In this document: in pieces, positions 27,212 through 38,055 of the stretch
How positions within the stretch are numbered: position 1 is the stretch's first letter
Layout of the letters: every line of letters begins with the position of its first letter
From: Bdellovibrio sp.
GTDB lineage: Bacteria > Bdellovibrionota > Bdellovibrionia > Bdellovibrionales > Bdellovibrionaceae
Direction of reading: 5' to 3'
Assembly (NCBI GenBank): GCA_020720425.1
Contig: DYOP01000005.1
Location: forward strand, 1-63,004
DNA length: 63,004 nt
The notes under the pieces: generated by a model
Databases searched by the model: none
Seen by the model: only the letters and a program-made list of their open reading frames with translations
Told to the model about the DNA's origin: nothing
Translations under genes and position numbers: made by a program

Positions 27212-27917
27212 GATAAAAAACTTTCGAAGCGTTAAAATAAGAGTTTTATTTTTTAAACTATTTTTTTTAAATCTGCTTTTTTTTAATCTTCTTTTTTTGG
27301 GATGCGTTCAAGTTGAAAAAGCTCCTGAGCGTTTTAAACCCGAACTATCAGATCAACAGGCGCCACTTGTGCATGATCAATATCGCCTTAGCAAAGATCG
27401 AACTTATTTAGACGAGCTCAGAAAAGATACTCCAAGCCAAGTTAAAGTTGAAAATGATGAACTTGCTTTTTTAGATGATTACTTTTTAGACCTCGAAAAA
27501 GATCAATCAAAAATGAGAGAATCATTTCAGAAAAAGTTAAGTAAAAAACGGGAGTTTTTTCAGAATGATTTAAAAAAAGAACGGGAGCAGTTTACTAGGC
27601 AAGAAAGAAAACAAAGAGAAGAGTTTTTAAAAGAACAGGATAAATCTCGAAAGAAAATTAAATCCGAAGGGCAAAACAAAGAAATGATAAAAGAGCATTT
27701 TGCAGAATTGGATTTAAAAAGAAAAAATTTTTTCTCTCAATTAAGAGAGCATAGGGACGAGTATGAGTGGGCGGTACGAGAGAGACGAAAAAGTTTTGAA
27801 GACTACCTTAAAGATAAAAAGGATCAATTTAATGACCGCATGAAAATTTTTATCGAAAAGCAAAAGCAATATAAAAATGAAAAAAAGAAAAAAGCCCAAG
27901 AAGCCCAAGGGGCTTAA
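27204..27917 (+). CDS. charged coiled-coil lipoprotein, unknown
   Basis: Not recognised. A 237-aa protein with a very hydrophobic signal and lipobox (LLFLGC, Cys near 37). An acidic linker with DDYFLDLEKDQ leads into a long, almost uninterrupted Lys/Glu/Arg-rich helix. It is built of repeats such as KKREFFQNDLKKEREQF and RKQREEFLKEQDKSRKK. Such sequence should form a long single helix or coiled coil reaching through the periplasm. A spacer or peptidoglycan-contact role is a guess. Its 3' end overlaps the convergent rsmD by four bases. Confidence 0.75.
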   Translation: MNRIKNFRSVKIRVLFFKLFFLNLLFFNLLFLGCVQVEKAPERFKPELSDQQAPLVHDQYRLSKDRTYLDELRKDTPSQVKVENDELAFLDDYFLDLEKDQSKMRESFQKKLSKKREFFQNDLKKEREQFTRQERKQREEFLKEQDKSRKKIKSEGQNKEMIKEHFAELDLKRKNFFSQLREHRDEYEWAVRERRKSFEDYLKDKKDQFNDRMKIFIEKQKQYKNEKKKKAQEAQGA

Positions 27918-28465
27918 GATAGGCTGCTTAAAAAAACAGATAAACTTTTATCACCAAAAGATTTAGTTTTTAAAAGTGTAAGGTTTGGGTAACTTTCATC
28001 TAAAAATTCATGTTTTGACCATTCAATTGCCACTCGTGTTGAAGGTCCTAAAGCTTTTGATTGTGATAAAGCTAAAAGAGTTGAATGGGCCAATTTTTTT
28101 GTAAAGGGTGGGTCTATTAAAATAATATCAAAAGGATTTTCAAATTGACCGGATAAAAATTCAAGACTGTCAGATTTGATAATTTCAAATGAATCTTTAA
28201 TGCTTAGCTTTTGTAGATTTTTTTTTAAAATCATGATGGATGCGGGATGGCTATCTACAAAGGTAACACTTAACGCGTTTCTTGAAAGAGCTTCAATGCC
28301 GAGATTTCCCGTGCCCGAATAAAGGTCTAAAATGTGACTGTTTTCAAATTCAAATTGAAACATATTGAAAATGGCTTCTTTAACTCGGTCTGTGGTCGGG
28401 CGAATGTGGGGTTGGTTGAATGAGCTAAGTGTTTGGCCTTTATATTTTCCTGATATAATTCTCAT
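27914..28465 (-). CDS. rsmD: 16S rRNA (guanine(966)-N(2))-methyltransferase
   Basis: RsmD methylates G966 of 16S rRNA. The 183-aa protein begins MRIISGKYKGQTLSS and continues with RPTTDRVKEAIFNMF, the family hallmark. HILDLYSGTGNLGIEALSR is the SAM site and IILIDPPF is the catalytic DPPF motif. It is the last gene of a long minus-strand operon and abuts the PilZ-like gene with no gap. Confidence 0.94.
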   Translation of the reverse strand: MRIISGKYKGQTLSSFNQPHIRPTTDRVKEAIFNMFQFEFENSHILDLYSGTGNLGIEALSRNALSVTFVDSHPASIMILKKNLQKLSIKDSFEIIKSDSLEFLSGQFENPFDIILIDPPFTKKLAHSTLLALSQSKALGPSTRVAIEWSKHEFLDESYPNLTLLKTKSFGDKSLSVFLSSLS

Positions 28466-28813
28466 CTATTTTTGTCCAATTTTAACGATAAACCTTAGTA
28501 TTTCGTTAGTCAGAATATCAGAGGGGTGAGAAAAATGCAATTCTGCCAGTAGCTCTTTGCCAAAAGTGCCATCACTGTTAGGTATCATTTGATCATATGT
28601 TTTAATGACTTTACAGGTAACGGTGTGTTGGCTTACCTCTGCGGGAAGTTTAAAGCTGGCTTTTAAATGATGCCCCACTTTGAGGTGATCGACTGTGGTT
28701 TCTTTGACAATAAAACCAATGGGGGTCATTTTAAGAATAGAGCCTTCGATCACTTTGTTTTGATCTTCTATCAATAAGGAGACAAAAAACGGATAAGGCT
28801 TTACTTTATTCAT
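28466..28813 (-). CDS. PilZ-like domain protein (tentative)
   Basis: A 115-aa soluble protein whose pattern fits a PilZ beta barrel. VIEGSILKMTPIGFIVKETT is followed by LKVGHHLKASFKLPAEV and VTCKVIKTYDQ, then ELHFSHPSDILTNEILRFI. The usual c-di-GMP-binding RxxxR near the N-terminus is not evident, so it may not bind the nucleotide. It overlaps the response-regulator gene by four bases, which suggests a shared signalling or motility role. Confidence 0.55.
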   Translation of the reverse strand: MNKVKPYPFFVSLLIEDQNKVIEGSILKMTPIGFIVKETTVDHLKVGHHLKASFKLPAEVSQHTVTCKVIKTYDQMIPNSDGTFGKELLAELHFSHPSDILTNEILRFIVKIGQK

Positions 28814-29172
28814 TTTGATGTTTCTAAGATGAGTTGTGGTAACGCTAATACATTTTCAAAGGGCTTATGTAGAAAGTGAATTTGAGTGAGGTCATTTTCA
28901 AAGGCTTGGTTAGCTGTATAGGCTGACATGAGATAAATAATTTTATTTTTTTTAAGTGATTCGGGTATCATTTTAATAACCTGTGGACCGGTCAGGTGAG
29001 GCATTATTACGTCAATTAAAATAACATCGGGTTGATTTGCCATCCACATATCATAACCCTCTTGGCCATTAGATGCTTCTAAAACATGATGATTGCCATG
29101 TCTAAGAAAGGCTCTTGATAAGGCCTTTCTTAGCAAAACTTCGTCGTCTACAATAAGTATGGTTTTTGTCAT
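28810..29172 (-). CDS. single-domain response regulator
   Basis: A CheY-like receiver of 120 aa without an output domain. The acidic pair is in ILIVDDE (Asp9/Asp10). The phosphoacceptor is Asp54 in VILIDVIMP. Ser83 lies in YLMSAYT and Lys103 in FLHKPFEN. It lies 14 bases after a histidine kinase gene, its likely partner, and overlaps the PilZ-like gene. It could act by protein contact, for example on the flagellar or envelope machinery nearby. Confidence 0.92.
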   Translation of the reverse strand: MTKTILIVDDEVLLRKALSRAFLRHGNHHVLEASNGQEGYDMWMANQPDVILIDVIMPHLTGPQVIKMIPESLKKNKIIYLMSAYTANQAFENDLTQIHFLHKPFENVLALPQLILETSK

Positions 29173-29186
29173 GTGTGTCCTTTATG

Positions 29187-31154
29187 CTATTCGATTGTAT
29201 CCCAATTGGGTAACTGAATTATAAATTTGGCCCCTTTTCCCAATTCAGATTGAGCATAGATGCGTCCGCCCCAGTCCTCAATTAATTTTTTACTTAAACT
29301 CAGACCAAGACCTGTTCCTTCACCCCTTTTTTTTGTTGTAAAAAGGGGATCAAATATCTTATCAATATATTCACTATTTATTCCTGGGCCATTGTCTTGG
29401 ATTTCAATCATGTAAGTCGTGGGCGTTTGCAAAACATTAATTGAAATTTGCCCTTTAAAGTCCATGGCTTGTGCTGCATTGTGGATTAAGTTAAAAATGA
29501 CTTGTTGAAATAATTCGGGTTGAAAATTTGAAAAGCACTTATCCTTTGGATAGGCTTTACTTAAGTTAATTGTTCTTAATATGCTTTTTGCAAACAATAT
29601 GGCTGTTTCAATATTTTCAATTAAATCAGCTTTTGATGTTTGGGTTGAGTTTTGGTTGGTAAATTGAAGTAATGATTTGATTATTTTTTCGGCTCTTCTT
29701 GCGGCCATTTCAATTTCAATAAGATCAGCCTTGGTCACTGCTGGCATGTTACTTTCAGAAGAAAGCCATTGGGTCAGAGCAATAATTCCTGAAAGAGGAT
29801 TGGTCAGCTCATGAGCAATATGCCCTGCTAAATCAGCTAAAATAGCCATTTTTTGGTTAAAAATTGTTTCTACATAGTCTTGGTGTTTTTGAGTGATATC
29901 TGAAAGGCTTACCAAATAAAAAAGACTATTTTTTGAGTCTTTAAACTCAATTACATTGGGCAGAAAAAGTTTTTTTTCAAACTCGATGGCATCATCTAAA
30001 CCTTGGGGAGGAGTAAAATTTGACTTACAATATTGTTGAGCTAAGCTTGAAGCCAGCTGTAGTAGCTGATTATTATTACCCTGTACCAAATTTAAATTTT
30101 TATCAAAAATATAAAGTGGTAAATTAATATGTGTAAATGCTTGATTCCATGATTTGACAAGCTTTTTAAGTAAAAGCTGATTGTAAACTTTTTGGTAACT
30201 GATAGAAATAACGGGTGCTAAATTGATTATTGGATCAACAAATTGAGGGTCCGAATTTTCATGAAAAACAAGTAACAATTGTTGATTTGATTTTATTGGT
30301 TTGCCAATTGGTATGACGGTTAGATTGTTAATAGTTTCTTTTAGAAATGAGCAAATCATAGATTTAAACTTGTTATCATTAATGTGTACGCCATAAATTT
30401 CTGGTATGCCCGTAGAATGAAATACCTGAATTTCATCACCATATTTAGAAAAGACAATACCTGTATTAGGTGATTGTTGTTGAAATATATAAAGAGATTG
30501 AATCGGGTGAGGTAACAATGATGATTTAATAACAAGGTCAATTAAATCACTTGGGTGGTTAGATGATTCGCTTTGAGAGATAAAATAAATAAAGCTTCGA
30601 AACTTTTGGTTAAGTTGCTTAAGCTTTAAATAGACCTCTTCTTTTTTTGAAGTGGCCTCTTTAATGTTTTGTTCGAGGGCTAATTGTTCGCGTTCTTGAG
30701 TGCTTTGGCTTAGTCTAACTGTTTTGCTAGATAAATAATTTGACCATTTTTGCTTAAATGAGTTCCACTCTTTTTGGACTATAATTGTATTTATATTATC
30801 TCTGTTTTTAGCTAATAATAATGTAATATTATGTTCTTTGGCTTTATTAAGGTGATTAATTGTAATCTCGTTAGGTTCAATGAGTAGGATAATTTTTTTA
30901 TTAATTGAGTAAATTAAATCTTCGTTGGTTATATGATTTAAATGATTAAAACCTTCTAAAATATAAAATCCCTGACCGCTTAAATGGGAGAGTTTTTTTG
31001 AATAACTTAAATTGTTAATTTTTTTAAAATTTGTATTGGGTAAATTCGTTGTCCAACGAATGAGTTGGTCATTAATATTTTTAGTATCTTCAACGACAAT
31101 TGTGGATAGTAAATTAAAACTAGAATCTTGAATCATTTTTTTTTGATAATTCAT
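29187..31154 (-). CDS. soluble sensor histidine kinase
   Basis: About 655 aa. The start is uncertain: ATG at 31154 or 31136, or a TTG at 31169. The first 140 residues (EDTKNINDQLIRWTTNLP onward) look like a degenerate receiver-type fold. A coiled coil (LALEQNIKEATSKKEEVYLK) leads to GAF/PAS-like regions. The phosphoacceptor is LADLAGHIAHELTNPLSG, His near 448. The ATPase boxes are IFNLIHNAAQAM, IEIQDNGPGIN, DPLFTTKK and GEGTGLGLSLS. No membrane segment is present. It overlaps the preceding gene by about 35 bases. Confidence 0.88.
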   Translation of the reverse strand: MNYQKKMIQDSSFNLLSTIVVEDTKNINDQLIRWTTNLPNTNFKKINNLSYSKKLSHLSGQGFYILEGFNHLNHITNEDLIYSINKKIILLIEPNEITINHLNKAKEHNITLLLAKNRDNINTIIVQKEWNSFKQKWSNYLSSKTVRLSQSTQEREQLALEQNIKEATSKKEEVYLKLKQLNQKFRSFIYFISQSESSNHPSDLIDLVIKSSLLPHPIQSLYIFQQQSPNTGIVFSKYGDEIQVFHSTGIPEIYGVHINDNKFKSMICSFLKETINNLTVIPIGKPIKSNQQLLLVFHENSDPQFVDPIINLAPVISISYQKVYNQLLLKKLVKSWNQAFTHINLPLYIFDKNLNLVQGNNNQLLQLASSLAQQYCKSNFTPPQGLDDAIEFEKKLFLPNVIEFKDSKNSLFYLVSLSDITQKHQDYVETIFNQKMAILADLAGHIAHELTNPLSGIIALTQWLSSESNMPAVTKADLIEIEMAARRAEKIIKSLLQFTNQNSTQTSKADLIENIETAILFAKSILRTINLSKAYPKDKCFSNFQPELFQQVIFNLIHNAAQAMDFKGQISINVLQTPTTYMIEIQDNGPGINSEYIDKIFDPLFTTKKRGEGTGLGLSLSKKLIEDWGGRIYAQSELGKGAKFIIQLPNWDTIE

Positions 31155-31746
31155 GTGAAATCTTATCAAACAATTCAGCCCAGCTTTGAAGTGAGTTTGC
31201 TAAATCATATTCTATGATTTCTGAAAGAAGATCTGAGTTTTTTGATTCAGCGGCGCTTAGGGCTTGGCCTACGGCGCTGGCCAGTTGTTGTTCATTAATA
31301 TTCCAGCTTGGGACTTCAATTAAGTTCATGGGTGTTAACACAACATGAAGTGATATCAAAGATTGAACTAGCATTTGGCAAGATTCAATGACTTGTATAA
31401 AGTCTACAAGATTGTTTTCAAATCCATCAGAATTTATTTTTGTAGCTAGCTGATCTGTTTTAATAATTATCTGCGGAATTTCTTCGCGCCAATTATTTAT
31501 AATTTCATGAAGTAGGTGATCAGGGTTTTCATAGAATATCTTAATTTTTTCGAGTTCCACGGTATTTATATCCTGAAGACGATGTTCATCAGACTCGGAT
31601 AGCTTCATATCATTAATTACAAACTGACATATAACATAACCCTTGTTTTGATACTCATCTTCGACAGCTTTAACTAGATCACCAACGGTTTGACATTTTG
31701 ATTTCAGTTGGCTGATTTCAGAGGCTGAGTAATCATGCTGTTTCAT
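31120..31746 (-). CDS. unknown cytosolic protein in the signalling operon
   Basis: Not recognised. About 208 aa from MKQHDYSAS, chosen because GGGAG lies upstream. A longer frame starts seven codons earlier without a site. Residues about 20-70 (GYVICQFVINDMKLSESDEH, then VELEKIKIFYEN) read as strand-helix-strand, in the manner of a small beta-grasp domain. The rest is helical and acidic. It overlaps the end of the glycosyltransferase gene by 14 bases and the kinase start by about 35, so its expression is tied to both. Confidence 0.72.
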   Translation of the reverse strand: MKQHDYSASEISQLKSKCQTVGDLVKAVEDEYQNKGYVICQFVINDMKLSESDEHRLQDINTVELEKIKIFYENPDHLLHEIINNWREEIPQIIIKTDQLATKINSDGFENNLVDFIQVIESCQMLVQSLISLHVVLTPMNLIEVPSWNINEQQLASAVGQALSAAESKNSDLLSEIIEYDLANSLQSWAELFDKISHELSKKNDSRF

Positions 31747-33220
31747 TTTGATTGTTCTCCCGAGCATTTGCTGTATTTAAATTTTCAGTTTGATTAAAAA
31801 TATGTAAAATTAAATCTGAAAGTAAAAACTGAACCTTTAAAGTGGCTTCTAAAATATCTTCATGTGATCCTGGGCCAATTCGCAACTTTTCGGTTAAGTA
31901 CCAATCAATGATAGGTCGAATATCGCTGTTAACGCGGTAAAGGGCTTGAACAATCTCTTCGCTTCGATTAATAAACTGCGCCACATCTTCAAGCGGTGAT
32001 CCGGCTTTAACTTTATTGAGAAGTTCAATCATAAATTCATTAACATCGCGAAGCTGATTAAGAGCTGTTAAAAATTGAGAGTCAAACTGGGTAGGCATCA
32101 CCCCCCCTTGGTACATGGATTGAATTAATTCCCAGCGCGTATTATTTAACTCTGTATGATTGGGTAAATAGCTCGGAGTTCCTGTTGTTGTATAAAATCC
32201 ACTGGCGCTTATATTTTTATCAGTAAGCAATTCGAATATTGTATTCGCAATTTCGCTAAACTGAATTTGATTATCGTTAATTATAAATACAAAGCTACCA
32301 GGTGCGCGAGGGCCTGTTTCCCAGAAGTTTACAAAATTAGAATGGCTGAGTTGCAAGGTCCTTGTTTGGGTTAAGCTTGCAATATGGGTCAAACTACTAT
32401 CTGGGCAAACCAAAAGTGAAGATTGTTTGATTATCGAAAAAACCTGAGTCAGTGCGGTTTTGCCAACAAGATTAAAAATTTTTGGATGAGTGGTGCTAGA
32501 TAAAATGGTTTCAGCTTTTGCTAGTTCCGATTTATGCCCCAGTAGCACAATCGGAATTTTTATTAAGTTACCTAAATTTGAAAGTAAAAAACTTAAAGCG
32601 CTCGCTGAAAGAGTTTTCTGATCATTTGAAGCTCCCACTTGGAGAGCAATAAAAGGTGATTCAATGCCTTCTAAATGATAATCAATAAAATGATGAGTCT
32701 CCCAGTGCTTGGGTTGAACATCAACGCCCATAAGGGTCCCAAATATCTCGGCCAAATGAAAGCGATTGGGTCTATCGGTGCCGACTTGTGCATAAAAATA
32801 GGCCGACATATCATCAGGGATACTTAAAAAACCGTCAGAGGTTCGTGAGTAACCACAAATATTTGATAGAGAAGGTGAGTGTGAAGATAGGTAATAAGAT
32901 ATCCATGAGCTAAGGGGTGAAAATGATAAATTAATTATCTGATCAAATCCCTTTTGAACCAGGTCATTTAGCCATACTGTCATTCTGTTTTCTGACTCTT
33001 CGGTATTAGCGATATCAGATATTAAAGGCTCTAAAATGTGTTTGATGGGTAACTCAATAACTTCATTTACGGCGTCAAGTCCATATACAGCCTCACTAAA
33101 TTTTTGTCTTACAATAAGTGTAATCTCTGACTCAGGGTGAGCTTGTTTATAAGCCCTGAGAGCTGGCCATGTTTGGTAAATATCACCGAGTCGGGCGATT
33201 TGTATTACGGCTATTTTCAT
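31733..33220 (-). CDS. glycosyltransferase family 9 protein
   Basis: A GT9 (heptosyltransferase-like) enzyme of 495 aa. The N-terminal Rossmann half starts MKIAVIQIARLGDIYQTWPA. The sugar-nucleotide half carries IALQVGASNDQK and SLLVCPDSSLTHIASLTQTR, both GT9 hallmarks. The last 150 or so residues are a helical extension not found in WaaC/WaaF. Placement next to the FliD/FliS/FlaG genes, instead of lipopolysaccharide genes, suggests protein or surface glycosylation, such as flagellin. That is an inference. It has a strong ribosome site (AAGGAG). Confidence 0.85.
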   Translation of the reverse strand: MKIAVIQIARLGDIYQTWPALRAYKQAHPESEITLIVRQKFSEAVYGLDAVNEVIELPIKHILEPLISDIANTEESENRMTVWLNDLVQKGFDQIINLSFSPLSSWISYYLSSHSPSLSNICGYSRTSDGFLSIPDDMSAYFYAQVGTDRPNRFHLAEIFGTLMGVDVQPKHWETHHFIDYHLEGIESPFIALQVGASNDQKTLSASALSFLLSNLGNLIKIPIVLLGHKSELAKAETILSSTTHPKIFNLVGKTALTQVFSIIKQSSLLVCPDSSLTHIASLTQTRTLQLSHSNFVNFWETGPRAPGSFVFIINDNQIQFSEIANTIFELLTDKNISASGFYTTTGTPSYLPNHTELNNTRWELIQSMYQGGVMPTQFDSQFLTALNQLRDVNEFMIELLNKVKAGSPLEDVAQFINRSEEIVQALYRVNSDIRPIIDWYLTEKLRIGPGSHEDILEATLKVQFLLSDLILHIFNQTENLNTANARENNQNETA

Positions 33221-33371
33221 TTGGTAATTGCTCCTTTATGAGTTCAAGTAGTGAGGATAATACGATAGTAGATGAATTTAAGGTTTGGGGATGCTCTTGC
33301 AAGCGTTCCAATTGTTTTTTCTCAATTTGGCTTTTTGCAATTTCAAGATAATTCCAAAGTGTTTGACTCAT
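33183..33371 (-). CDS. 62-aa protein, unknown
   Basis: A small gene that I accept because AAGGAG lies nine bases upstream, its ATG overlaps the TPR gene's stop (ATGA), and it fits the operon. The product is soluble and mostly helical (LWNYLEIAKSQIEKKQLERL; STIVLSSLLELIKEQLPNE). Its end overlaps the glycosyltransferase start by 38 bases, which implies tight coupling. No homology is recognised. Confidence 0.6.
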   Translation of the reverse strand: MSQTLWNYLEIAKSQIEKKQLERLQEHPQTLNSSTIVLSSLLELIKEQLPNENSRNTNRPTR

Positions 33372-34276
33372 TGATTTGACTCCTTAATTTTATTTTCAAT
33401 GGCGTTATAAATTTCTAAATAACTAGGGTTATTTGGTTCTAGCAAAAGGAGTTTAAAAGATTCAGCTTGGGCTAATAGGAGTAAGTTATACTCAGTTGCC
33501 TTTTGAATGAGAACTAATGAAATTTCTTTGTCGTCAAAGTTAATTTCTTGATAGTTTACAAGTCTTTCAATCGCTTTTGCTGATAGGTTGTTTAACCATG
33601 ACGTGTACATAAGTAATGCTGTTCGGTTACTTGGGTTTAGATCTAAAGCATATTCAAGATTGGCGATGGCTAACGAATAATCACCTAAATTTTGATGATA
33701 AATGGCAAGCCCTGTCCAGGCTTTGTCATTATTTGGGTTCAGTTCGATTGCTTTTTTAAAATACTGCTGAACCAGGTCCCAATTGTTTCCCTGAATGGCA
33801 AGTATTCCTAAATTAACAAGTAATCGGCTTGAATTGGGGCTAATCGTAAAGGCCTTATGGTAGTTTTCTTTGGCCGATTCCATATCGTTTAATTTTAAAT
33901 AGGAATTGCCTAAACTTTTATAAAGTTCATATAAGGCCTTTGTATTTTCATTCTGAACCTCGAGTAATGCTTTTTCAAAAAATATAACAGCTTTTTCGGG
34001 TAACTGCAGATCGTCAAATATCCATGCTAATAGCGAATAGCTAGTGGCTGAGGGGTAAATTTCTGCTAGTTTTACGGCAATAGTTACTTTTGCCTGAGAG
34101 GTTTTATAATAATAACTTTCAGATCGAGACAGAGCCATTTTTAAATAAATGGGGTCATCGGGTGATACGCTAAGAGCATCAAATATACTCGAAGTGCTAA
34201 TGGCCTTGGGCATACGTTTTGACCTATTTAAAGTTGGATAGGTCAAACTTTCAAAAACAGTGGAGAGTTGTTCCAT
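33368..34276 (-). CDS. tetratricopeptide-repeat protein
   Basis: A 302-aa cytosolic protein with about five TPR units between residues 70 and 240. Examples are ALYELYKSLGNSYLKLNDME, SRLLVNLGILAIQGNNWDLV and KAWTGLAIYHQNLGDYSLAI, each followed by the acidic ALDLNPSN-type turn. No signal peptide is present. TPR proteins are scaffolds. Beside a GT9 gene it recalls the TPR-coupled glycosyltransferases, but no catalytic domain is present. It is the first gene of the eight-gene operon. Confidence 0.9.
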   Translation of the reverse strand: MEQLSTVFESLTYPTLNRSKRMPKAISTSSIFDALSVSPDDPIYLKMALSRSESYYYKTSQAKVTIAVKLAEIYPSATSYSLLAWIFDDLQLPEKAVIFFEKALLEVQNENTKALYELYKSLGNSYLKLNDMESAKENYHKAFTISPNSSRLLVNLGILAIQGNNWDLVQQYFKKAIELNPNNDKAWTGLAIYHQNLGDYSLAIANLEYALDLNPSNRTALLMYTSWLNNLSAKAIERLVNYQEINFDDKEISLVLIQKATEYNLLLLAQAESFKLLLLEPNNPSYLEIYNAIENKIKESNQ

Positions 34277-34469
34277 ATTTATTTAAATCCTTTTTGGTAA
34301 CTTCTTGTACAAAGGTTAAACAATGCAACTGAAGTGCCAGAAATAAAGGACTAGGCTTAGGACCTGTTACCATCCTCAAATCAAATTGAATAAAGCTGGA
34401 GGTAACTTAAATTTATATGAGACAATAGTAGAGTAAATTATTTGGGGCTTAAAAACAAAACAGTGTCAC

Positions 34470-35663
34470 TTATTTGACGCTATTAGGGTTAGCTATTTTT
34501 TTTAATTCATTAAGTTTTATTTGAACTTCTTCTGGTAGAAAAGTGCCACGGCTGCCTGTGTAGCCTAGATATAAACTTTTTTCGAGAGCCTCATAGCATT
34601 TTGCGGCCCACTTCGAAGCGGGTAGGCGCTTAATACATGTTTCATAGTAACCTTCGTGGAGTGACCATATCGCAATGTCTTTTGTTTGCTCATAGCTTGT
34701 GCCAAGTAAAAAAAGTTCTTCACCTAAGCGGTCATTGTTTTTTTCGCTGGCAATAATAGGGTTAAGCAAAGCCTGAATTCGAAACATTTCAATTTCGTTA
34801 AATTGGCCTTTATTTGAGGGAGCCTGAGTTTGCTCAAATAATTCTTTAGCCGCATCAAAAGGCTCTTTATAAATTTTTAGATTGGCTTGGCGAGACCAGC
34901 TTTTTGCTTTGATAAGCCAAGACTGGCTTGCTGCTTTTAAATAAAATGGGATATTGGGAGCCTTTGATAAAGCTGTGATCAGTTGAATTGTTTGCTCAGG
35001 ATTTTGGTTAAAGCGCACACTGATCATAAGCCCCAATCTGACGGCTCGATCTAAATCAAAAACATTTATTTTATCGCTTAGCCCCTGAGATAAAATTGAA
35101 TTGATAGTTTTAAGAGCAAGATCAAACTGTCTTGTTGCCACTAGGTAATCGATTTGATCAATCAATCGAAGAGATTTCCAAGTCGAGTCAATTTTGTCAG
35201 TTGCAAAGCTAGGACCACTTTGAGTGCGGGTATGACATTCAATGCAATAGGCGGTAACATTTAAAAGTGATAATCGGGAATATTCCATGTGACCATTTTT
35301 ATAAGAATCAAAACTCCTTTTAAGCTCATCTTCAAACCCTATAGATAAAAATTCTAAAATAGGATCTGTACCCATGATTGATGGAACATGACTTACCGTT
35401 TGTCCAATTTGAGATAGAGTGAGCAGGCGTTGCTCAATCGTTTTTTGATTCTGCGGATTGTGAAACTGTTTAGGGCTAACAAGGTAGGGTAAAATTTGAT
35501 CTAATTCGTATTTAAGACGTACCATAGAGACGGTGACTTGGGCATCAGGAGCGGCTGCCGTTGATGAGTCTATTATGTCAACCCGATGAGGCGACGAGGG
35601 TTGACATGCGGTAACAAATGAAAACGCCATAAGGGTAACTAAAAATAAATTTAATTTCTTCAT
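34470..35663 (-). CDS. lipoprotein with a single haem-c motif
   Basis: A 397-aa protein with lipobox FVTAC (Cys near 20). Near residue 137 lies AYCIECHTRTQSG, a canonical CxxCH haem c attachment site. The surrounding region (FDSYKNGHMEYSRLSLLNVT) is helical, as in small cytochromes. The remainder is alpha-helical and repeat-like (LVATRQFDLALKTINSILSQ), perhaps a TPR-type solenoid. A distal Met ligand cannot be assigned. Covalent haem binding in the periplasm is inferred from the motif and the export signal. Partner and substrate unknown. Confidence 0.75.
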   Translation of the reverse strand: MKKLNLFLVTLMAFSFVTACQPSSPHRVDIIDSSTAAAPDAQVTVSMVRLKYELDQILPYLVSPKQFHNPQNQKTIEQRLLTLSQIGQTVSHVPSIMGTDPILEFLSIGFEDELKRSFDSYKNGHMEYSRLSLLNVTAYCIECHTRTQSGPSFATDKIDSTWKSLRLIDQIDYLVATRQFDLALKTINSILSQGLSDKINVFDLDRAVRLGLMISVRFNQNPEQTIQLITALSKAPNIPFYLKAASQSWLIKAKSWSRQANLKIYKEPFDAAKELFEQTQAPSNKGQFNEIEMFRIQALLNPIIASEKNNDRLGEELFLLGTSYEQTKDIAIWSLHEGYYETCIKRLPASKWAAKCYEALEKSLYLGYTGSRGTFLPEEVQIKLNELKKIANPNSVK

Positions 35664-35744: not shown

Positions 35745-36158
35745 TTAAACCTTCTCACTGAGTCTAACAGTATTGTCTTTAGAGTGATATCCCTTAATGG
35801 CAATTTTACCCTTTTTAATATCTTGAAGCTCTTTAATGATTAAGCTTTTTGCCTGGTCTATTAAAGATAAAATTTGAACATCTTGATCAAGGATTTGATA
35901 AATATACTGATTTTTTATATGCAGTAGGTTTTTAACATTGTCTCGGTCGTTGGTTTGATAATCAAAATTTTGTTTTGTGCACTCAGATACTTGAGTATCA
36001 ATATATGAAATAACATTTAGCATTTCATCTCTTTGAGTATAAAACTCGTCTAACGAATCAATTTCACCTTGCTTAAGTAAGCTTAATTGCGTTTCGTTTA
36101 AGGTTAAATATTTTTCCAGATAGTGATTTTTTTGCTCTAACAATTGTATTAATCTCAT
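35745..36158 (-). CDS. FlgN/FliT-like flagellar chaperone (tentative)
   Basis: A 137-aa, entirely helical soluble protein. MRLIQLLEQKNHYLEKYLTL followed by EIDSLDEFYTQRDEMLNVIS has the heptad style of flagellar export chaperones of the FlgN or FliT type. It lies 43 bases downstream of fliS, which supports a filament-assembly role (known FliT binds FliD). A very strong site (AGGAGGGG) precedes it. Sequence similarity alone is weak, so the call rests mostly on context. Confidence 0.55.
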   Translation of the reverse strand: MRLIQLLEQKNHYLEKYLTLNETQLSLLKQGEIDSLDEFYTQRDEMLNVISYIDTQVSECTKQNFDYQTNDRDNVKNLLHIKNQYIYQILDQDVQILSLIDQAKSLIIKELQDIKKGKIAIKGYHSKDNTVRLSEKV

Positions 36159-36201: not shown

Positions 36202-36597
36202 TTACCCTTTTTGTTGCGAATCTGCTTTCAATTTTTCAACGGCGCCTTTCCAGCCACCGTAAAGTGTCTCTAAAATTTTAAGTGCATCTTTAAGCGGCTG
36301 CGAATCTCCGCTAATGTTGGCTTTGGTATATTGATCTGTAATAAACATATAAAGCTGCTCAAGCCGTTCCGAAATTTCTCCGCCGACTTTGTGATCTAAA
36401 GTATTATTTAGCTCAACAACAATATCATAAGCTCGGCCTAAGTGAGTGCACTTTTCGGCAATTTTTTTATCTTCATTTGCCTTTAAAGCAAGTTTAGTAA
36501 ATTTAATTGCTCCTTCATAAAGCATAAGCAAGATCTGCTCTCTTGAAGCACTTACAACTTGAGTCTCTCGATATTTAAAATATGCATTTTTACTCAT
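36202..36597 (-). CDS. fliS: flagellar export chaperone FliS
   Basis: FliS binds the flagellin C-terminus and keeps it from polymerising before export. The start at 36597 (MSKNAYFKYRETQVVSASRE) has GGAG five bases upstream. A frame eight codons longer is open but does not match the family. EQILLMLYEGAIKFTKLAL is the FliS signature, and LYGGWKGAVEKL near the end is also typical. The length of 131 aa is standard. It lies about 90 bases downstream of fliD. Confidence 0.93.
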   Translation of the reverse strand: MSKNAYFKYRETQVVSASREQILLMLYEGAIKFTKLALKANEDKKIAEKCTHLGRAYDIVVELNNTLDHKVGGEISERLEQLYMFITDQYTKANISGDSQPLKDALKILETLYGGWKGAVEKLKADSQQKG

Positions 36598-36690: not shown

Positions 36691-38055
36691 TTATCCGGCT
36701 GGTTTGACCATACCTGCCAGCGAAGCGCCTTGAGACTGAAGTTTAGACATCTTAGTTTCTAAGTCTGCAAACTTTCGTCTTAAAGACTCTTCTTTTTTAA
36801 CGAGTTGATTTTCTTTTCTTTCGATACGTTCATCTATTTGTTTAATTCGATCCTGAATCCCTTTTCTTCGTGTGCCAAGGGGGCCCGAGGTGCTATTGTT
36901 TAGAGAGCCAACCACGTTTTTAACCATAGGAATAAATCCTGAAGTAAAACTGTTACCTCTTAAAAATTGAACCACCTCTTGAGGCTGGCTGGTTAAAACC
37001 TTATTAAATTTTTCTTGATTAAAATTAAGAGTTCCATTTCGAGTAAATTCAATCCCTAATTGTGAAGCTCTTTGAATCGATCCCGCTGTGCCGACAGATG
37101 AGTTTTGAATCACTTGTCTAAGTTTACTTTCAATTGACCTAAGTAAACTATCCCCTCCCATAGGGCCAAGGCGTTGCCGTCCACCTTTGTCTTTAGATAA
37201 TTTGGCTTGATTTTGAATCCAGCTCAGGGCCCCATTATAAGCATCTACAAACTCTTTAATTTTTCCGCCAATAACTTGAAAGTCTTCTTTAACCGAAATA
37301 AGTATGGGACGACCTTGGCTAAGTTGTTTAATTTCTAAATTAACGCCTGGGATAATGTCTTTAGCTGAGTTTTCGGCAAGTTCCATTTCAAATCCATCTA
37401 ATTTAATTTTTGCATTTTTTGCAGAAATTTTTTGATCAAATTCAAAATCTTCTTCGCCATCAAGCAAGTAGACATAGGGGAATTCAATATCTTTTTTGTT
37501 ACCGGTATCAATTCCGGTTATCATAAGTCGGTAAGGGGCCTCGTTGTCCGATGAGTTTTCGACAACTTGAGCGGTAACACCATGACCTGATTTATTTATC
37601 GCTTGAGCGACCTGTTCAAGTGTCGAATTTTCTCTTTTAATATAAACTTCTTTTTCGCCATTTTTAGTGTTGAATTTAAAATATCCAGCTCCAAGCAAAG
37701 TCTCATTTTTATCCGGAAACCCATTGCTTACAACGCCGGGCTTTTGAGCTAACTGAAGAACTTCAACCTGCCATTGTCCATTTATAGCTTTATCTGGGTC
37801 AACGACTCCATTAATGACATTAGCATCTCCTGAATTAAAAATATTATTTTTAAAGCCTTTAATGCCAACAAGTTCTTCAACGGCTTTTGGTATTGATGAA
37901 ATCTTTTCTGATATTTCGCCAACAAGTTTTAATTTTTCTTCGTCTTGAAGTTTTTTGTCATTCATTTGTCTTACGGGGATACGCTCAGCCTCCATTATCT
38001 GTTCGACAATGTTAGGCGGTAAACCTGATGCCATACCTGTAATTCTCATTCCCAT
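36691..38055 (-). CDS. fliD: flagellar hook-associated protein 2 (filament cap)
   Basis: FliD caps the filament and assists flagellin folding at the tip. About 454 aa. I start at MGMRITGMASGLPPNIVEQI, the usual FliD opening. An upstream ATG at 38100 adds 15 residues that do not match. The N-terminal domain includes SISSIPKAVEELVG-like helices and residues VEVLQLAQKPGVVSNGFP. The C-terminal FliD domain includes QLGIEFTRNGTLNFNQEKFN and ends in a coiled coil (IKQIDERIERKENQLVKKEE). FliS follows and FlaG precedes it, the normal order. Confidence 0.93.
   Translation of the reverse strand: MGMRITGMASGLPPNIVEQIMEAERIPVRQMNDKKLQDEEKLKLVGEISEKISSIPKAVEELVGIKGFKNNIFNSGDANVINGVVDPDKAINGQWQVEVLQLAQKPGVVSNGFPDKNETLLGAGYFKFNTKNGEKEVYIKRENSTLEQVAQAINKSGHGVTAQVVENSSDNEAPYRLMITGIDTGNKKDIEFPYVYLLDGEEDFEFDQKISAKNAKIKLDGFEMELAENSAKDIIPGVNLEIKQLSQGRPILISVKEDFQVIGGKIKEFVDAYNGALSWIQNQAKLSKDKGGRQRLGPMGGDSLLRSIESKLRQVIQNSSVGTAGSIQRASQLGIEFTRNGTLNFNQEKFNKVLTSQPQEVVQFLRGNSFTSGFIPMVKNVVGSLNNSTSGPLGTRRKGIQDRIKQIDERIERKENQLVKKEESLRRKFADLETKMSKLQSQGASLAGMVKPAG

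Follow-up and report, generated by a model that had tools for sequence, protein, structure and literature searches.

To our knowledge, the known flagellin glycosyltransferases fall into a few classes (Maf, FlmG and FgtA-like). FlmG of Caulobacter crescentus brings a TPR module together with a GT-B glycosyltransferase (GT) in a flagellar context and, according to the part of the published account drawn on here (PMC7591256), O-glycosylates flagellin in the cytoplasm, which is also the outcome that we propose for the locus described below. This locus lies in a window (the whole stretch of DNA that was analysed, 63,004 nucleotides, nt) of contig C127 of the 2.6-Mb Bdellovibrio sp. genome G000, and consists of eight open reading frames (ORFs) read from 34276 to 27914 on the minus strand: a TPR protein, a protein of 62 amino acids (aa; here S62), a GT9 glycosyltransferase, a 208-aa protein (here U215), a kinase, a receiver, a PilZ-like protein and RsmD. 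From the sequence evidence set out below we consider it rather probable that the operon serves the glycosylation of flagellin or another filament protein, with U215 as the partner of GT9.

The GT9 enzyme and its probable partner U215

The GT9 protein, which scores 47.4 bits against Pfam PF01075 (cut-off 22), is built of a GT-B core (residues 1 to about 340) and a helical C-terminal extension (about 360-494). The original prediction, a reading of the letters alone, had called for such an extension, and the structure model (pLDDT 90.6, pTM 0.87; 19-sequence alignment) bears this out with helices at 361-371 and 381-494. Residues 1-337 find their best structural match in 3tov (Z 27.8, root-mean-square deviation 2.6, 302 residues aligned), with WaaC (2h1h) at Z 26.8 over about 300 residues and TibC further off at Z 16.2, the extension (361-494) lying outside these matches; a phmmer search of the PDB with the window GT9 gave no match at 0.01, while a profile did match. 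D13, K202 and D274 are invariant in 35 of 35 GT9 proteins (K202 in at least 90% of 19 sequences) and align with WaaC positions, which we take to be D13, K192 and D261 in the numbering and active-site roles that we assume for that enzyme. Conserved active-site residues and a flagellar locus also agree with the earlier placing of a GT9 enzyme beside flagellar genes.

As to the donor, the ADP-heptose synthesis domain (rfaE domain II) was found in 58 of 59 genomes, that of the window included. NeuB is represented in the same genome by one partial PF03102 match (4.6e-10, positions 57-146 of 241), full-length matches elsewhere reaching 1e-40 or better. Since this NeuB-superfamily match is both weak and partial, we rejected nonulosonic acid as the donor in this genome, and gene content makes ADP-heptose the likelier donor for GT9.

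The model of U215 (pLDDT 90.6, pTM 0.74; 16 sequences) combines an alpha/beta N-terminal domain (1-74, with strands 2-5, 38-44, 47-49 and 68-73, and helices) with a bundle of four long helices (75-207). Such a mixed N-terminus is compatible with the beta-grasp-like protein that had been suggested, although the model does not establish a beta-grasp. No match was found with Foldseek at E up to 0.001, and a fold search by VIA returned generic four-helix bundles only (FAT domains and designed bundles, best Z 14), searches that hardly tested the alpha/beta part. Moreover, neither U215 nor S62 reaches a Pfam or NCBIfam cut-off and both are conserved, in keeping with the earlier view that they belong to no known family. 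All 19 named loci L031-L049 have S62, whose E47 and Q48 are invariant, both lying outside the 38-nt overlap with the GT9 gene.

A tie between GT9 and U215 comes from L073 and L083, two loci with no separate U215, in which the C-terminal stretch of the U215 profile finds a match in the GT9 tail (best domain 21.7 and 15.3 bits, respectively, against 4.9 for the best of 1000 shuffled tails). Taken together, gene order and this partial fusion argue that U215 works with GT9.

Conservation and distribution of the locus

GT9 matches at E up to 0.001 occur in 50 of the 59 genomes of the first relative set (own genome included), some of them only short GT9-superfamily matches, and the named relatives that bear them are all of Bdellovibrio type (Bdellovibrionaceae, Pseudobdellovibrionaceae, Bdellovibrionales, Bdellovibrionia, Oligoflexia). 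Across forty loci around such matches there recurs the order FlaG-FliD-FliS-FliT-TPR-(X-GT9b)-62aa-GT9-U215-kinase-receiver-(PilZ-like)-RsmD, in which X and GT9b are proteins of relatives taken up below. The order FliD-FliS-FliT-(TPR)-GT-U215 holds for near relatives and also for the remote families f12, f26 and f27, a conservation far above chance; the order had been expected to hold among relatives, and it does so across the phylum, the loss of order that was to speak against the proposal not having occurred.

Sixty-one loci with FliS on the contig (window included) carry a GT in 55 cases and GT plus U215 in 49, six having a GT without a separate U215 (two partial fusions, two cut by the contig end), three U215 without GT9 (each with a 450-488-aa gene in the GT9 place) and three neither; these are frequencies among selected loci (L050-L089 chosen by GT9 match, L096-L115 mostly by absent or weak GT9, L124-L143 by U215 match) and not population rates. 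In the phylum at large, U215 occurs only in flagellin-bearing genomes: it was found in 211 of 368 genomes and flagellin in 335, and the remaining 33 all lack U215 (20 by listing, 13 by complement). Family f4 accounts for 15 of the genomes without flagellin and f12 for five, and flagellated members of both families carry U215.

In four loci (L105:10785-12137, L106:14617-15981, L131:10198-11664 and L109:4595-5641) the position of GT9 is taken by an unassigned protein of 348-488 aa, which adjoins TPR in each and U215 in three. Three that were tested (L105 and L131 among them) match no Pfam family over cut-off, and those of 450, 454 and 488 aa (L105, L106, L131) gave no detectable sign of kinship with GT9 (hhalign probability 4.7). 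In genome G001, the FliT-like gene and TPR are parted by three inserted ORFs of 307-756 aa (L066:1475-5827).

A sigma54-type motif upstream of the operon

The TPR gene is preceded by an exact TGGCAC-N5-TTGCA, which we read as a sigma54-type -24/-12 element on the strength of what we take to be the known consensus. It is the sole exact match in the window, where 2.14 matches would be expected by chance at up to one mismatch. The genome holds five TGGCAY-N5-TTGCW sites, this one included, and another of them precedes a gene that by eye is FliL-like. Of 58 loci compared, 48 have a motif with at most one mismatch before TPR (21 exact, 27 with one mismatch), the 58 rows not being independent and including weak TPR matches (L097, L115) and near-identical relatives; about 0.5% of mononucleotide-shuffled upstream sequences come within one mismatch. 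No motif with 0-1 mismatch was found upstream of GT9, U215, the kinase, FliD, FlaG, X, RsmD, FliS or the putative lipoprotein.

The kinase and the receiver

The kinase phospho-acceptor H453 is present in 47 of 49 aligned kinases and N564 in all 49, and D54 and K103 of the receiver in 46 of 46; the kinase thus has its H and N boxes and the receiver its D and K, as expected of a two-component pair. By eye, the first 130 or so residues of the kinase are receiver-like, with the aspartate pocket and receiver motifs lost, and the kinase L074:12885-14912 keeps an intact-looking N-terminal receiver.

Both proteins persist in all three loci that have neither GT nor U215 (L096, L101, L109) and both are missing from four TPR-GT9-U215 loci of f26 and f27 (L132-L135). 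Since the regulators are retained in loci without the GT block and are missing from others that have it, co-inheritance gives signal control no support, and the signal-controlled glycosylation of the original prediction is a weak reading: kinase and receiver are separable from the GT block. They lie in one operon with it, and a part in controlling glycosylation is no more than possible.

Layout of the operon and neighbouring genes

The features are collected in Table 1. By their ORF coordinates, adjacent genes overlap at five of the seven junctions: by 4 nt between TPR and S62, by 38 nt between S62 and GT9, by 14 nt between GT9 and U215 with the ATG at 31746 (35 nt with that at 31767), by 35 nt between U215 and the kinase (kinase ATG at 31154) and by 4 nt between the receiver and the PilZ-like gene. 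Kinase and receiver are separated by a 14-nt gap, and the PilZ-like and RsmD genes abut. Eight overlapping genes had been described, and all eight ORFs and the range of 4-38 nt stand, but the overlap is not continuous.

Table 1. Features of the operon and its surroundings (window coordinates)
Feature	Position	Strand	Match or remark
TPR protein, 302 aa, first gene of the operon	33368..34276	-	Pfam TPR_1 2.9e-24
S62, small conserved 62-aa protein	33183..33371	-	no family above cut-off
GT9 glycosyltransferase, 495 aa	31733..33220	-	PF01075 2e-12
U215, 208-aa protein (215 aa from alternative start 31767)	31120..31746	-	structure model, no family
Sensor histidine kinase	29187..31154	-	HATPase_c 2.9e-25, HisKA 4.1e-8
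Stand-alone receiver, response regulator without output domain	28810..29172	-	Response_reg 1.4e-17
Conserved 115-aa protein, PilZ-like at most	28466..28813	-	no family above cut-off
RsmD-type 16S rRNA methyltransferase	27914..28465	-	Cons_hypoth95 2e-51
sigma54-type -24/-12 motif TGGCACTTCAGTTGCA (GG-N10-GC)	34324..34339	-	47 nt before TPR start
Small FliT/FlgN-like protein (context)	35745..36158	-	FliT 0.0011, FlgN 0.0007, both below Pfam cut-off
FliS flagellin export chaperone (context)	36202..36597	-	PF02561 5.2e-35
FliD filament cap (context)	36691..38055	-	FliD_C 2.2e-48, FliD_N 2.8e-14

FliD and FliS, named earlier as neighbours, were both verified by their Pfam matches, and the ORF taken for FlaG has no Pfam match at E 0.1. 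The 115-aa protein had been called PilZ-like, a weak attribution: the window protein does not match PF07238 at E up to 1 and only three of 13 alignment members do, weakly (best E 0.026), on which ground we rejected PilZ membership. RsmD, probably an unrelated downstream gene and by its family a housekeeping one, closes the cluster in nearer relatives; the f12 and f26 loci yielded no RsmD, and in those of them that were checked an NAD-kinase-like and a RecN/SMC-like gene follow. Between FliS and the operon lie the FliT-like gene and, next to the operon, a putative lipoprotein (34470-35663, minus strand), which has a CxxCH motif and a weak Cytochrome_CBB3 match (0.05, below cut-off) and was seen in eight of 61 annotated sequences.

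A second GT9 and a Maf-N-like protein in relatives

In most relatives the TPR and S62 genes are separated by two additional ones, which encode X (about 200 aa) and a second GT9, GT9b; neither was seen in the window, L061, L069 or L114. Eight of 15 X members match Maf_flag10_N at E up to 1, the best, at 2.6e-5, being the one over cut-off; in a set of seven relatives' X proteins, likewise, one passes the Pfam cut-off, the matches being weak. PF20157 was matched in 34 of 358 genomes across the phylum, 15 of them over cut-off (true Maf frames included). Eight of these matches fall in loci already fetched and, on comparison of coordinates, all eight are X, which PF20157 thereby recovers independently; seven further ones share a contig with U215 and precede it by about 4 kb. 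These data are suggestive, and only suggestive, of a relationship between X and the Maf N-terminal domain.

In family f28 (L149-L152, L154, L159-L167), Maf_flag10_N matches occur in frames of 535-710 aa, which are probably true Maf; of nine stretches fetched there, two (L163, L166) show FliD. Homology of the helical extensions of GT9 and GT9b was dropped (hhalign probability 1). By eye, GT9b of relatives (e.g. L055:7602-9179) has a four-cysteine stretch (CAPC...C...C) that recalls the iron finger of TibC and is absent from the window GT9.

Proposed function and alternatives

We suggest that the locus is a sigma54-driven flagellar operon whose core would be GT9 together with U215. GT9 would most likely act in the cytoplasm beside FliS and FliT and attach a sugar to flagellin, or to some other filament protein destined for export, while the acceptor is still inside the cell, with U215 holding either the enzyme or the substrate and the TPR and 62-aa proteins as candidate adaptors. 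In G000 the module is reduced: it has neither the GT9b nor the Maf-N-like X that most relatives carry.

Several observations weigh against this proposal. The Ser/Thr content of 22 flagellins, which a motif picked out among 60 loci (L050-L089, L096-L115), does not differ clearly between genomes that have the block and those that lack it. All 14 genomes of genus g3 have flagellin and lack U215, and the GT block is likewise missing from the two g3 loci checked, so that the block is dispensable for the flagellum; a flagellated genus naturally without it does, at the same time, provide a built-in comparison. Moreover, TPR is not tied to the GTs, being absent from f12 loci with two GTs and kept in g3; an unassigned protein takes the place of GT9 in three U215 loci, two from genus g25 and one from f20; and X, whose Maf-N matches are weak, gives low scores with class I methyltransferase-like Rossmann folds as well.

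Among the alternatives, action of GT9 on lipopolysaccharide (LPS), either of the core or of the sheath, is unlikely, even though the closest solved GT9 relatives are LPS heptosyltransferases, the operon GT9 is the sole one that its genome yields at E up to 0.001 and the sheath LPS of B. bacteriovorus differs from that of the outer membrane, as stated in the part of PMC7175336 used here. The confinement of U215 to flagellin-bearing genomes, the Maf-N-like gene in the operon of relatives and the flagellated genus g3 without the block all argue against LPS, and the enzyme stays below the NCBIfam cut-offs of the LPS heptosyltransferase equivalogs (63 against 185.3 bits for TIGR02193, 31.4 against 134.6 for TIGR02195). 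It is less probable again that the operon glycosylates some other filament-associated or surface protein, for instance FliD of the cap or a pilin: the operon is close to fliD and the acceptors of GTs are unreadable from sequence, but nothing specific points to FliD, pilin or the like, and the neighbouring FliS and FliT indicate late filament substrates in general.

It also appears very improbable that the locus is primarily a two-component unit for flagellar assembly (TPR, kinase, receiver) into which the GT block was inserted as an accessory. L096 and L101 (both g3) and L109 do present just such a TPR-kinase-receiver set without GT or U215, with the exact sigma54-type motif kept before TPR; however, GT9-U215 adjoins fliDST without kinase or receiver in f26 and f27 and without TPR in f12, and neither part can therefore simply be the host of the other. 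Glycosylation of flagellin or another filament protein remains our preferred reading.

Going further, we put forward tentatively, and with more doubt than confidence, that Bdellovibrionota possess a phylum-wide, undescribed flagellar machine of one or two subunits of GT9 heptosyltransferase type plus U215, mostly joined by a free-standing Maf-N-like domain and, in near relatives, under a sigma54 promoter, which would form a further route beside Maf and FlmG and would likely use ADP-heptose. If true, this would add a GT9-based class of flagellin glycosylation with a dedicated partner, in a phylum that includes predatory bacteria with sheathed flagella; conserved genes without an assignment would also acquire roles, and flagellin glycosylation would become open to test in Bdellovibrio. 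The word 'glycosyl' is absent from the text of the main flagellin paper of Bdellovibrio consulted here (PMC2791853), and the main text of a Tn-seq paper (PMC6561027) contains neither it nor 'bd061'. Among open-licence PMC papers, those found under flagellin glycosylation and Bdellovibrio have neither term in title or abstract, none on the operon was found under GT9 and flagellin glycosylation or flagellin and heptosylation, and the locus tags Bd0612-Bd0617 and Bd0618-Bd0623 led only to fliS as bd0612 and to unrelated papers, with nothing on the operon. In Bdellovibrio bacteriovorus, fliD is bd0611 and fliS bd0612 according to PMC9140294.

Comparison with known glycosylation systems

In contrast to FlmG, the TPR and GT modules are encoded here by separate genes, and loci with the GT but without TPR exist; a FlmG-like fusion was rejected, TPR and GT9 being on separate chains, and with NeuB only weak and partial in this genome pseudaminic acid is an unlikely sugar. 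The likeness to Maf (motility-associated; PF20157 plus PF01973) resides in X of the relatives, which weakly resembles the Maf N-terminal domain. X is absent from the window, however, and the MptE-like domain PF01973, present in two of 59 genomes, has no match in the genome studied, for which reason Maf proper was rejected.

TibC and BAHT provide the precedent of a GT9-like fold that acts on proteins. Relative to their description in the part of PMC4358343 drawn on here, the window GT9 does not have the N-terminal beta-barrel before the GT domain, nor the four-cysteine iron finger, having only two cysteines; of the protein heptosyltransferases, what is seen here is the donor capacity only, in the form of rfaE domain II. 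Finally, with WaaC/WaaF and other LPS heptosyltransferases of family GT9 the enzyme shares the fold, an N-terminal GD motif and a DxxxxH region, from all of which it is set apart by a helical extension of about 150 residues, by its regular neighbour U215 and by its flagellar locus.

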